Of a stretch of 23,400 nucleotides of DNA, positions 10,261 through 13,095 are shown one piece after another. Where the stretch lies: positions 1 through 23,400 of IMG/VR virus record IMGVR_UViG_3300031841_004534; one strand, 5' to 3'. The notes below the pieces were generated by a model that did not search any database, was not told the origin of the DNA, and saw nothing but the letters and a program-made list of their open reading frames with translations. The position numbers were made by a program, and so were the translations under genes. Every line of letters starts with the position of its first letter. Position 1 is the stretch's first letter. The DNA is from a virus.

Positions 10261-10262
10261 AA

Positions 10263-10288
10263 GGGGTAGCAATAACTGCCCCTTTTTT
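10263..10288 (+). terminator. Rho-independent terminator after the scaffold gene
   Basis: GGGGTAG (10263-10269) pairs over its full length (one G-U pair) with CTGCCCC (10276-10282) around the loop CAATAA, followed by six T residues (10283-10288). It separates the portal/scaffold unit from the genes leading to the capsid gene. Confidence 0.85.
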
Positions 10289-10302: not shown

Positions 10303-10656
10303 ATGATGATGAATAACAAGAAAAAAGAGCAGCGAATGGCTGGTGATCGCATGGCCTTTGGTGCTGGCAACATTACTGGCCCTGGTGAAGAACGCCGTCA
10401 ACCTGAGCAAGTGCAGATTGGTGATCCTCATGGTCAAGGTCAGATGATGCCTCAAGATCTTGCTGGTGGTTACCTCAACCTTGCAATTCCTGGTTCACCT
10501 CTTGGTCAAATGGGTTTGATGTCTGGCATTACTGCACGTAATGCTCAGATTACGCAAGATGCTATCCAAGCTCAACAATTGCAACAGCTGATGGCAATGC
10601 AAGCAATGCGTGGTCAGCTTCCTGTTGGCATGATGCCCCAACAACAACAAGGTTGA
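10303..10656 (+). CDS. Met/Gln-rich hypothetical protein, 117 aa
   Basis: The 117-residue protein begins MMMNNKKKEQ (ATGs at 10303, 10306 and 10309; any could start it). It contains 14 Met by my count, with many Gln and Gly and a C-terminal MQAMRGQLPVGMMPQQQQG-type segment. It has no membrane segment and no recognised domain. It sits between the scaffold terminator and the capsid promoter and pairs with another Met/Gln-rich gene three bases downstream. This suggests a small capsid-associated or assembly protein, which is inference from position only. Confidence 0.7.
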   Translation: MMMNNKKKEQRMAGDRMAFGAGNITGPGEERRQPEQVQIGDPHGQGQMMPQDLAGGYLNLAIPGSPLGQMGLMSGITARNAQITQDAIQAQQLQQLMAMQAMRGQLPVGMMPQQQQG

Positions 10657-10659
10657 TCT

Positions 10660-10917
10660 ATGGCAAAGTCAGCAAAAAAAGCCGTTAAGAAAGCACAGCA
10701 AGCAAAAGATATGATGTTGCAAGCTGCTATGCAAGCAGAAATGATGCAGCAAAGTGGACCAATTGATCCCGAAATTCAAGCGCAACAAGTTGCAATGCAA
10801 GTACCAACGGTAAATCCGTATGGACGCATGGGAACTGTTCCACCAAATATTTATGATTATGACAATCGTTTGAGTGGTTATATTGGTATGCAACCTGTAT
10901 TCAATCCTGAAGTTTAA
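10660..10917 (+). CDS. Small Met/Gln-rich protein with basic N-terminus, 85 aa
   Basis: The 85-residue protein starts three bases after the preceding stop. It has a Lys/Ala N-terminus (AKSAKKAVKKAQQAK) likely to be an amphipathic basic helix. A Met/Gln-rich helix follows (MMLQAAMQAEMMQQ), then a Pro/Tyr/Asn-rich C-terminus (PYGRMGTVPPNIYDYDNR). It has nine Met in 85 residues. A basic helix plus an extended aromatic tail could fit a capsid-interior or minor head protein, but no family is recognised. Confidence 0.7.
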   Translation: MAKSAKKAVKKAQQAKDMMLQAAMQAEMMQQSGPIDPEIQAQQVAMQVPTVNPYGRMGTVPPNIYDYDNRLSGYIGMQPVFNPEV

Positions 10918-10928
10918 TTATTAATCAC

Positions 10929-10951
10929 TATAAATAAACCCCTGATATAAT
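10929..10951 (+). promoter_or_regulatory. Capsid-gene promoter: extended -10, with an overlapping T4-late-type box
   Basis: TGATATAAT (10943-10951) is a perfect extended -10 element (TG, one base, TATAAT), which can work without a good -35; none is evident upstream. Within the same 23 bases lies TATAAATA (10929-10936), identical to the T4-type late promoter core. The surrounding gene order is not T4-like, so the second match may be chance. Initiation from the extended -10 would be near 10958, just upstream of the hairpin series. Confidence 0.6.
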
Positions 10952-10960
10952 TTTAAGTAA

Positions 10961-11050
10961 TGGGACTGTTGTTCCAGGAGTGATAACAGTTTGTCTGTTA
11001 TCGAAGTCTTTAGTTAAAGGCTTCTGACATCAGCTTACCCTTTACGCTGA
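10961..11050 (+). ncRNA. Structured 5' leader of the capsid gene: four consecutive potential hairpins
   Basis: Four stem-loops follow almost without gaps. TGGGAC/GTTCCA spans 10961-10976 with a 4-base loop and one wobble pair. GATAACAG/CTGTTATC spans 10982-11002 as a perfect 8-bp stem. GAAGTCTTT/AAAGGCTTC spans 11003-11024 with 9 pairs, one of them a wobble. TCAGC/GCTGA spans 11030-11050 with an 11-base loop. The capsid ATG follows at 11058 without a nearby Shine-Dalgarno; the only AGGAG (10976-10980) is about 80 bases upstream, between hairpins 1 and 2. I read this as a leader controlling translation or stability of the capsid mRNA. Confidence 0.55.
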
Positions 11051-11057
11051 ATAGACA

Positions 11058-12203
11058 ATGTTTATTGATAACGATTTTCCAAAACTGCTTGGTGCGGAAC
11101 TTTATCGTCCCCACCCTGCATACATCGTGGAAATGGCTTGCGAGCCTGTGGTTGTCCACGATTTTACTAAGCAGCCTGGTCAAACTGTTCAGTTAGACCG
11201 TTACCGGTTCTTCGGTAATCCTGGCACTAAGACCAGCCGTGAGCGTACCCAAGATCAAACGATTGGTACTGCTAACAGCCGGTCTATTGTCAAGGATAAA
11301 GTGCTGGTGTCTCTCCGTGAGTATACCGGTCCTGCTGATCCGAATAACACCAATCTTCCGAGCACCTTTAAAATTGCTCGTGAGACCTTAATGACTGCTC
11401 AGCGTCTGCTTCTGGACACTGGCAATCTGAACATGTTCCACCAGTCCATCGGCAGCCTCACCCTGCTTGATGACTACCGTCGTTGGCGCGATCGTGTCTT
11501 CCTTGATGAACTCTTTAAGGCAGAATCTCGCGGTCAATCTTCTGATACCCAAGGCGGTTATTACTATCCTAATAACAAAGCCAAGACTGGTACTACTACT
11601 CTGACTGCCTACTCTGCTACTGAGTATGCTTCTGAGCGCTTTAAGTTCAATGTAAAGACTGACCTCCTCGAAGTGGTCAAAGGTCTTCGTAAGCGTAACG
11701 TTCCCGTCTTCGCTGATGGCTACTATCGTTGTATTGCTGATCCCTCTTTCATGAAGGATCTGCGTGCCGATCAAGGCTTCCGTGAAGTGGCGCGTTACCC
11801 TGGCATGGGTCAGCCTAATCCCCTGATGGGTATGATGGCTCCTAACGCTGCTCTCTACGGTGGCGGCCAGTATGGTCAAGCCCAATTCGTGGGTGGTGAG
11901 CCTGTGATGCCTTCTGGTTTTGTGTTTGAAGGTGTGCGTTTCTTCGAATCCACCAACTTCCCCTCCAAGTCCATTACTGTGGACATTGGTGGCGGTTCTG
12001 GTGCTATTTCTCATGATACTCCCCCGGCTCTGTTCTTCGGTCCCCAGGCCGTTGGTGTTGGTATCGGTGGTCCTAACGCTCAAGTCCTCATCAACAACAA
12101 TGATGACTTCAGCCGTTTCATTATTCTTATCTGGCAACTCTACGCTGGTTTTGCTAATCTGAATAAGGACTTCACCACTGTTGCCTTTACCATTACTGAG
12201 TGA
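11058..12203 (+). CDS. Probable major capsid protein, 381 aa
   Basis: The 381-residue protein lies downstream of portal and scaffold, at a typical length for an HK97-fold capsid subunit. The fold cannot be proved by eye. Supporting features are a mixed alpha/beta composition with charged helices (DDYRRWRDRVFLDELFK, about 138-154), an extended Gly/Pro/Asn-rich segment, and an apolar beta-rich C-terminus. Codon choice is strongly biased toward codons such as CGT, GGT, AAC, TTC, ACC and CTG/CTC, unlike most neighbours, as expected for the most abundant virion protein. It has its own promoter and structured leader. The next gene follows at 20 bases with a perfect ribosome-binding site. A 249-codon open frame on the other strand here is a by-product of codon bias. 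Confidence 0.75.
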   Translation: MFIDNDFPKLLGAELYRPHPAYIVEMACEPVVVHDFTKQPGQTVQLDRYRFFGNPGTKTSRERTQDQTIGTANSRSIVKDKVLVSLREYTGPADPNNTNLPSTFKIARETLMTAQRLLLDTGNLNMFHQSIGSLTLLDDYRRWRDRVFLDELFKAESRGQSSDTQGGYYYPNNKAKTGTTTLTAYSATEYASERFKFNVKTDLLEVVKGLRKRNVPVFADGYYRCIADPSFMKDLRADQGFREVARYPGMGQPNPLMGMMAPNAALYGGGQYGQAQFVGGEPVMPSGFVFEGVRFFESTNFPSKSITVDIGGGSGAISHDTPPALFFGPQAVGVGIGGPNAQVLINNNDDFSRFIILIWQLYAGFANLNKDFTTVAFTITE

Positions 12204-12223: not shown

Positions 12224-13045
12224 ATGGCTACTTATCGTTCTGAAGCCGGTGCTGTCCTGCAGCCCGGTACTCAAATTAACCGCCTCTCCTCCTTCAATAC
12301 TGAAGGTGTGTACGGTTGGCCTGGTATCGAAGCTTATGAGCTGATTGGTTATGCCAAGGTTGAAAACTTGGCTGCTGATAAAGCTAGCTATAAAAGCTTT
12401 GATCTGATTATCCCTTCTCCTGATCGTCGTCCTGATGATCGTGTGCGTGATAATCGTACTTCTATGGTTGTGCAAGCTTCTGCTGCACGTCCTGCTTACG
12501 TTTACGGTGCTTCTATTGCTATTGGTCAGGACATTCCTGCTGGTGGCGAGCCCGCATTCCCTGCCTCCCCCGTGACCGCTAACCTCGGCGGTACCACTGG
12601 TGAGTTCATTCTGTTTGGCCCTGATAACGCTGGCGCACCTTTGGGTGTTCCTACTACTCAGGCCAACGGTCTGGCTGCTGCTAGCGCCATCACTCCTGCT
12701 GCTGCAAGCTCTGCTTGGGCTCAAGGTGTTGGCGATACCACCGTCGGTAACATTCCTTTCTGGACTACTGTTACCACTGGCGGTATTGTGGCCGCTGATG
12801 CTGCAGATTCTATGTTCTACAAGGTGACTGCAGACACCACATTCAAAGCATACAACGTTAATGGCGTTACCTCAACAACTGTTGATGGTGACGGTGTTTT
12901 TATCAGCGCTGATGACTCAACTGCTGGTAAAGCTGCTTATATCATCTGCCGTGTGAACTACCTGCGCCCAGCTGCTCAGGTATCCTGGAATGATATTCAA
13001 GAGTTTATCGACTTTGCTTCTCAGCAAGGCGGCGACGACACTTGA
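12224..13045 (+). CDS. Abundant virion protein, possibly capsid decoration or cement protein, 273 aa
   Basis: The 273-residue protein directly follows the capsid gene and ends at the terminator, so both are made from the same transcript. It is Ala/Thr/Gly-rich and beta-rich, with an N-terminal part (SEAGAVLQPGTQINR; EAYELIGYAKVENL), a low-complexity Ala/Pro/Thr middle (about 105-165) and a C-terminal beta region ending in an acidic helix (SWNDIQEFIDFASQQ). High-expression codon usage and the perfect Shine-Dalgarno suggest copy numbers near those of the major capsid protein. A decoration protein is the simplest reading; a second capsid or tail-tube protein is not excluded. No family is recognised. 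Confidence 0.65.
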   Translation: MATYRSEAGAVLQPGTQINRLSSFNTEGVYGWPGIEAYELIGYAKVENLAADKASYKSFDLIIPSPDRRPDDRVRDNRTSMVVQASAARPAYVYGASIAIGQDIPAGGEPAFPASPVTANLGGTTGEFILFGPDNAGAPLGVPTTQANGLAAASAITPAAASSAWAQGVGDTTVGNIPFWTTVTTGGIVAADAADSMFYKVTADTTFKAYNVNGVTSTTVDGDGVFISADDSTAGKAAYIICRVNYLRPAAQVSWNDIQEFIDFASQQGGDDT

Positions 13046-13067: not shown

Positions 13068-13095
13068 GGGCTGGTCTTAGGATCGGCCCTTTTTT
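13068..13095 (+). terminator. Rho-independent terminator after the capsid genes
   Basis: GGGCTGGTC (13068-13076) pairs along all nine positions (two G-U pairs) with GATCGGCCC (13081-13089) around the loop TTAG, followed by six T residues (13090-13095). It closes the high-expression capsid transcript. Confidence 0.9.

Follow-up and report, generated by a model that had tools for sequence, protein, structure and literature searches.

Why a phage should place a row of potential hairpins, and no Shine-Dalgarno sequence, directly ahead of its major capsid gene is the question raised by this locus, which lies in a 23.4-kb virus record (the window, analyzed over its whole 23,400 nt). The preliminary description had called for a thermodynamic fold, and when positions 10940-11075 were folded, the four stem-loops that it had marked came back at the same coordinates (Table 1), with stems of 6, 8, 9, and 4 bp for H1 to H4. 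The minimum free energy (MFE) was -33.1 kcal/mol (z-score -2.2; 4 of 200 shuffled sequences were as good), which is modest for a single sequence, and the fold also contained a stem across the AUG that was absent from the earlier list. The extended -10 promoter reported there was present, AGGAG was found between H1 and H2 at 10976-10980, and no Shine-Dalgarno match of at least 4 nt precedes the ATG. The leader had also been described as unlike anything else in the window, and as far as we tested this it is: an H4-plus-ATG pattern, a TATAAT-plus-H1 pattern, and a covariance model of the leader (R1) each matched once, here.

Table 1. Elements of the capsid leader and of its transcription unit in the window
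Feature	Position	Strand	Basis or remark
Extended -10 promoter, TGaTATAAT	10943..10951	+	TATAAT upstream in 68/68 distinct leaders listed from loci chosen by capsid similarity
H1, UGGGAC-UGUU-GUUCCA, promoter-proximal	10961..10976	+	Fold; predicted to start at about +3/+4
H2, 8-bp hairpin	10982..11002	+	Fold; belongs to the variable middle, and many relatives lack it or have another sequence there
H3, 9-bp hairpin, fixed position, covarying stem	11003..11024	+	Fold and stems of relatives
Linker before H4	11025..11029	+	UGACA here; many relatives have a GGU-type linker that could pair with the ACC ahead of AUG
H4, near-invariant UCAGC-loop-GCUGA	11030..11050	+	R1 match 11002-11060, 34.5 bits
Major capsid protein gene	11058..12203	+	phrog_1357 major head protein, E 1.8e-15
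Second gene of capsid unit	12224..13045	+	AGGAGGT Shine-Dalgarno; no family match
Intrinsic terminator closing two-gene unit	13068..13089	+	Strong

The leader adjoins the start of the capsid gene, for which Pfam gave no match; in an annotated phage collection the single matched record was Synechococcus phage S-EIV1, 70.5% identical in DNA across 59% of a 1.9-kb query. Relatives were gathered from virus contigs, comprising at least 80 loci found with the window capsid, at least 80 with the S-EIV1 capsid, and at least 120 with a leader pattern; two outlier capsids used as further queries gave at least 80 loci each, many of them overlapping. The capsid start was identified in 249 of 284 sequences, the other 35 being dropped for too little upstream sequence or an unrecognizable N terminus (intron-split or truncated where inspected), and duplicates were removed from the leader set. 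Since the leader pattern includes H4, the loci chosen by it were selected with H4, and counts of H4 that include them are inflated (71 of 86 at 10 nt). The anchoring counts for H4 and TATAAT (68 distinct leaders) were taken from loci chosen by capsid similarity only; pattern-chosen loci are included in the counts for MFE, Shine-Dalgarno, AGGAG, the H3 stem and tree, and the second gene and terminator. Four of 97 leaders, which have no H4, were omitted from the compact-stem counts for H3 and from the GGU-ACC counts (n = 93).

The relatives fall into two leader types. Type A runs TATAAT, H1, a variable middle, H3, a linker, UCAGC-loop-GCUGA, mostly 8-11 nt, and ATG, and type B, that of S-EIV1, runs TAAAAT, a AGAUAAGACA..UGUCUGAAUCU hairpin (seen by eye, not folded), GGAGG, and GTG. 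The window is of type A, having TATAAT, H1, H3, and H4 at a near-fixed distance before ATG, and its leader contains none of the type B marks (TAAAAT, the AGAUAAGACA..UGUCUGAAUCU hairpin, GGAGG before GTG). In the S-EIV1 record itself (L081, KJ410740.1; L081:2930-4156) the capsid is annotated for its C-terminal part only (61540-62010), with an opposite-strand CDS over the start; an open frame from the GTG at L081:3005 gives a 383-aa protein.

Among the distinct relatives listed, a terminator follows the second gene in 60 of 73 of type A and 30 of 55 of type B (90/128), compared with 4% of shuffled stretches, and GGAGG stands ahead of the second gene in 71 of the 73 type A loci. As read from the sequences, promoter, leader, capsid gene, second gene, and terminator are one transcription unit. 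In type B, GGAGG was seen ahead of the second gene in 5 of 55 loci listed, the reverse of the capsid gene, the starts being mechanically picked and possibly wrong. The GC content of the unit is 0.49, compared with 0.37-0.39 at 13-18 kb and 0.52 at 9-10 kb; since it exceeds that of the 4 kb behind but not that of 9-10 kb, composition gives no clear sign of high expression. A further strong intrinsic terminator lies at 10261-10284, upstream of small genes at 10303-10917, which may thus form a unit of their own.

All 88 distinct type A leaders listed folded with MFE z-scores below -2 (mean -3.8; 40 shuffles each). Compensatory changes in related phages had been proposed as a check on the hairpins, and in H3 they are plentiful. 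A compact H3 stem of at least 5 bp at a fixed place was found in 89 of 93 leaders listed, compared with 40% of dinucleotide shuffles, and strong H3 stems in 74 of 93, compared with 8% of shuffles. These 89 leaders hold 66 distinct H3 hairpins; by parsimony on a capsid-gene tree, each of the five outer pairs changed 15-24 times, a count that registers H3 by its outermost pair and that register shifts may inflate somewhat. In the model-guided alignment, whose H3 register is imperfect, changes had occurred on both sides in four of five H3 pairs, and the whole structure was 91% paired, whereas column shuffles gave 84% and slid versions 29-56%. Two of five covariation measures were not above shuffles (pairs changed on both sides, reached by 291 of 500 shuffles; additional pair types, reached by 321 of 500).

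Several other routes to this comparison were abandoned. A whole-leader MAFFT alignment with RNAalifold misaligned H1 and H3 and gave little covariation (1 of 9 pairs), and a core-only alignment with a covariance model was used instead. An early assignment of H3 partners, which often chose the wrong ones, was replaced by a second assignment. A first test of stem length discriminated poorly from shuffles (H1, mean 6.5 vs. 5.0 bp; H3, 7.2 vs. 6.2) because the longest stem at any position was counted; the later test asked for a compact stem at a fixed place.

On comparative grounds, the type A leader is a structured RNA under selection, and the four hairpins of the window belong to a conserved RNA element, beyond chance. 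The conserved core consists of promoter, H1, H3, H4, and AUG; H2, listed originally beside the others, is not part of it.

We then considered the two ends of this core in turn. At the 5' end, TG precedes TATAAT in 65 of 97 leaders listed, a chance TATAAT farther upstream having been taken in some, and the distance from TATAAT to the first base of H1 is 8-10 nt in 81 of 86 parsed leaders (the other five were parsed from a second TATAAT). With the start taken 7 nt after the -10 element, this spacing would place H1 at about +3. A transcription start past about 11000, which the preliminary description recognized would remove most hairpins, is unlikely given that TATAAT keeps a near-constant distance from H1 among relatives. 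A promoter-proximal hairpin is readable in the aligned type B leaders too (by eye, unfolded). Farther upstream, some type B leaders carry a palindrome, GTTGATAAATTATCAAC, ahead of the -10 element (upstream of TAAAAT; e.g., L084 and L085), and some type A leaders carry TTGATAAA about 9 nt ahead of TATAAT; either could be a phage promoter element.

Two explanations would make this 5' region act on something other than the capsid start. Of 97 leaders listed, 85 have an AUG or GUG 7-9 nt past TATAAT, from which a leader peptide might control the capsid gene by attenuation. We find this barely credible: the frame varies from 2 to 34 codons, in one case has no stop, and is not conserved, and a purine start followed by the H1 stem explains the triplet. 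The tandem hairpins could, alternatively, resemble the put RNA of phage HK022, binding polymerase so that transcription passes the terminator at 13068 and enters the following genes. In the part of PMC9378689 available to us, HK022 putL is a ~70-nt RNA with two stem-loops just behind the promoter, paired from A3 on, much as H1 would be from about +3; the genes behind the capsid unit lie on the same strand and have weak promoter-like sites only, no commoner than in shuffles. The kept terminator by itself argues neither way. We nevertheless regard a put-like role as improbable, since the tie of H4 to the AUG and the absent Shine-Dalgarno would go unexplained and the number of middle hairpins varies. 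The shared feature is tandem stem-loops directly behind a promoter, and the HK022 element differs in preceding early genes and acting on polymerase, whereas the last module of the capsid leader is tied to a start codon.

At the 3' end, none of the 89 type A leaders listed has a Shine-Dalgarno match of at least 4 nt at the capsid start, whereas all 47 type B leaders listed have one of at least 5 nt. In the window, 24 of 30 starts, that of the capsid gene included, match by at most 4 nt, so the absence alone is unremarkable; what is remarkable is its systematic occurrence beside H4, together with the presence of a Shine-Dalgarno in the branch without H4. A split Shine-Dalgarno, in which the hairpins bridge the remote AGGAG to the AUG, is one alternative. 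It has precedents in T4 genes 25 and 38 (PMC3014915, in the part available), where a hairpin that related phages retain directly ahead of the AUG brings a Shine-Dalgarno close, and a far-upstream AGGAG is indeed carried by 8 of the 11 leaders whose H4-AUG spacing is 8 nt and by the four leaders of the L021 group. With 10-nt spacing, however, just 2 of 80 leaders have it, and Shine-Dalgarno matches of at least 5 nt, counted over the whole leader, are no more frequent than in mononucleotide shuffles (24 of 103 distinct leaders, or 23%, vs. 25%). Thus, none is enriched in the capsid leaders, unlike the T4 case, and a general role for AGGAG finds no footing; across the 103 leaders we consider the bridged arrangement very unlikely, and for the window alone, where AGGAG is present as it is in its neighbors, it is possible.

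The module that stands in this place in type A is H4, found in 64 of 68 distinct leaders listed from capsid-chosen loci. In these 64, GCUG ends 10 nt ahead of ATG in 52 and 8 nt in 7, with 9, 11, 17, or 18 nt in the other 5; the window has 8 nt, most relatives 10 nt. H4 has 4 bp in the fold of 10940-11075 and 5 bp when the leader (L082) is folded without upstream sequence. Four of its five pairs are invariant in the model-guided alignment; among the leaders listed, the closing pair changes from U-A to A-U in one clade only (L067, L287, and L288), and L021, L022, L365, and L368 retain a shorter CAG/CUG. Since H4 hardly varies, comparison lends its pairing weak support: H4 is conserved in its sequence, and a paired form of it is plausible.

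The covariance model R1 was built from 49 sequences, among them the window's own copy (L082), so the match in the window arises by construction. Run on 82 sources, R1 gave 77 hits, which comprised the leader in the window and in 75 of 80 capsid-chosen loci, plus an extra hit in L054 (E 0.84) taken as chance; no leader hit came from L002 (which has just 16 nt of upstream sequence), L021-L023, L067, or S-EIV1. Twelve type A partial genomes searched whole held no second credible copy, four hits with E 0.1-1 being taken as chance; having been picked as leader-bearing, these records are informative only in lacking a second copy. There was no match in five type B records (S-EIV1 and four relatives). 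In 38 more sources, mostly of type B, a capsid-start match was obtained only in L163 and L164, which have type A capsids, and weak hits in L105 (E 0.14) and L165 (E 0.19) lay away from the capsid start. In these R1 searches, H4 was thus not found at type B capsid starts. L163 and L164 (QQUU01000104.1 and QQUU01000043.1) are two contigs of one Bacteroidetes metagenome-assembled genome, with capsid genes 92% and 89% identical to that of the window, and probably represent phage sequence contaminating the bin.

The R1 leader also occurs at six capsid loci that are split by an insert (three distinct sequences, outside the model), directly before exon 1 and more than 800 nt upstream of exon 2; the three that were scanned contain a group I intron (Rfam RF00028). 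Such introns (88-97 bits) occur in both branches, in type A L035, L043, and L077 and type B L094, L111, and L149, splitting the capsid at about the fourth codon as judged from the inferred splice site. The inserts measure about 815 nt in L035, L043, and L077, about 280 nt in L094, and 830 nt in L149, and the sole forward open stretch of at least 60 codons in the type A inserts is one of 62 codons in L035.

Between H3 and H4, the linker offers two further pairings. ACC lies just before the AUG in 54 of 55 leaders with GGU and in 9 of 38 without it, and a nested GGU-ACC pairing was reached in 0 of 1000 permutations, a figure without control for relatedness. A pseudoknot between linker and H4 loop (AGGU/ACCU, AAGU/ACUU) is possible in some clades (64 of 1000 permutations, weak) and, by eye, not possible in L287 and L288; ACC is in the H4 loop without GGU in 16 leaders. 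On the tree, supported branches provide only five independent pairs, which is not enough for either pairing to reach significance, and neither pairing is present in the window.

The near-invariance of H4 raises the possibility of a translational operator, at which a protein, whether the capsid protein itself, some other phage product, or one from the host, would bind H4 and block or time initiation. We know of no capsid gene under such control in a tailed phage. Conservation of both H4 arms in sequence, when the neighboring H3 is kept only as structure, suits sequence-specific binding, as does the near-fixed distance from the AUG, and nested GGU-ACC pairing would close the start region in relatives that have it, which the window does not. 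Against this, the sister S-EIV1 branch lacks H4 at its capsid starts and no candidate binder was identified. T4 gp43 and gp32 act at hairpin or pseudoknot leaders (PMC3014915, in the part available), and the T4 gene 43 and gene 32 operators share with the capsid leader a structured mRNA region upstream of the start codon with a conserved hairpin or pseudoknot. They precede replication genes, bind their own product, and involve the ribosome binding site, whereas the leader in the window belongs to a capsid gene, has at most a putative binder, and has no Shine-Dalgarno. We regard operator control as the leading rival to the function favored below, albeit less likely than not. It is less likely still that H4 together with H3, 8-10 nt ahead of the AUG, is itself a new kind of Shine-Dalgarno substitute, recognized directly by the cyanobacterial ribosome or by a ribosome-associated phage factor, in which case the capsid mRNA would initiate efficiently in infected cells and be set apart from other messages. 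Pairing of AUCAGC with 16S rRNA would presumably need bulges.

The function that we consider most likely, with confidence falling a little short of even, combines protection of the 5' end by H1 with Shine-Dalgarno-independent initiation set by H3 and H4. H1 would hide the mRNA 5' end from the pyrophosphohydrolase/RNase E route and so give a longer-lived message, as 5' secondary structure protects mRNA from RppH and RNase E in Escherichia coli (PMC3997798, in the part available). H3 and H4 would keep the rest of the leader compact and position the AUG at a defined spacing, allowing ribosomes to start without a Shine-Dalgarno; in the type A branch, the H4 module would stand where the S-EIV1 branch has its Shine-Dalgarno. 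This proposal is supported, at the level of sequence, by the z-scores of all 88 leaders, covariation in H3, anchoring of TATAAT and H4, the Shine-Dalgarno contrast, the intron-split loci, and the terminator. Against it, the predicted start region opens only slightly more easily than in shuffles (4.63 vs. 4.90 kcal/mol; lower in 58 of 88 leaders), so that an enhancer role is not favored, and the stem predicted in the window crosses the AUG. The modeled GGU-ACC pairing of many relatives would hinder rather than help initiation, and alignment reveals almost no covariation in the H4 pairing. Of the functions first suggested, mRNA stabilization and initiation by an alternative route fit this anatomy, and binding of a factor for feedback may also apply; H2 as a conserved member and a general role for AGGAG are not supported.

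Individual pieces of this design have counterparts. The 5' stem-loop stabilizers of the papA type likewise have a hairpin within a few nucleotides of the 5' end, a position that H1 occupies by prediction, and the capsid leader differs from them in its further conserved modules near the AUG. The T7 gene 10 leader, another major capsid gene leader and one credited with high expression, differs by its strong Shine-Dalgarno. Rfam 15 gave no match in the window at the gathering cut-off; when the threshold was relaxed, Aar alone appeared, below its own cut-off (17.5 vs. 60 bits; E 2). We found no published description of the capsid leader in the open-access PMC literature, and the word "capsid" is absent from the part of PMC2864571 available to us. 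A structured phage mRNA leader is thus a known kind of element, and the present architecture at a capsid gene appears to be undescribed.

Together, these results give a cyanophage lineage found in many metagenomic contigs, at least those listed here, a cis-acting RNA element that had not been described. Two sister branches, one with a Shine-Dalgarno and the other with a near-invariant hairpin in that position, make it possible to test how phages safeguard production of their capsid and how initiation proceeds in cyanobacteria when a Shine-Dalgarno is absent.
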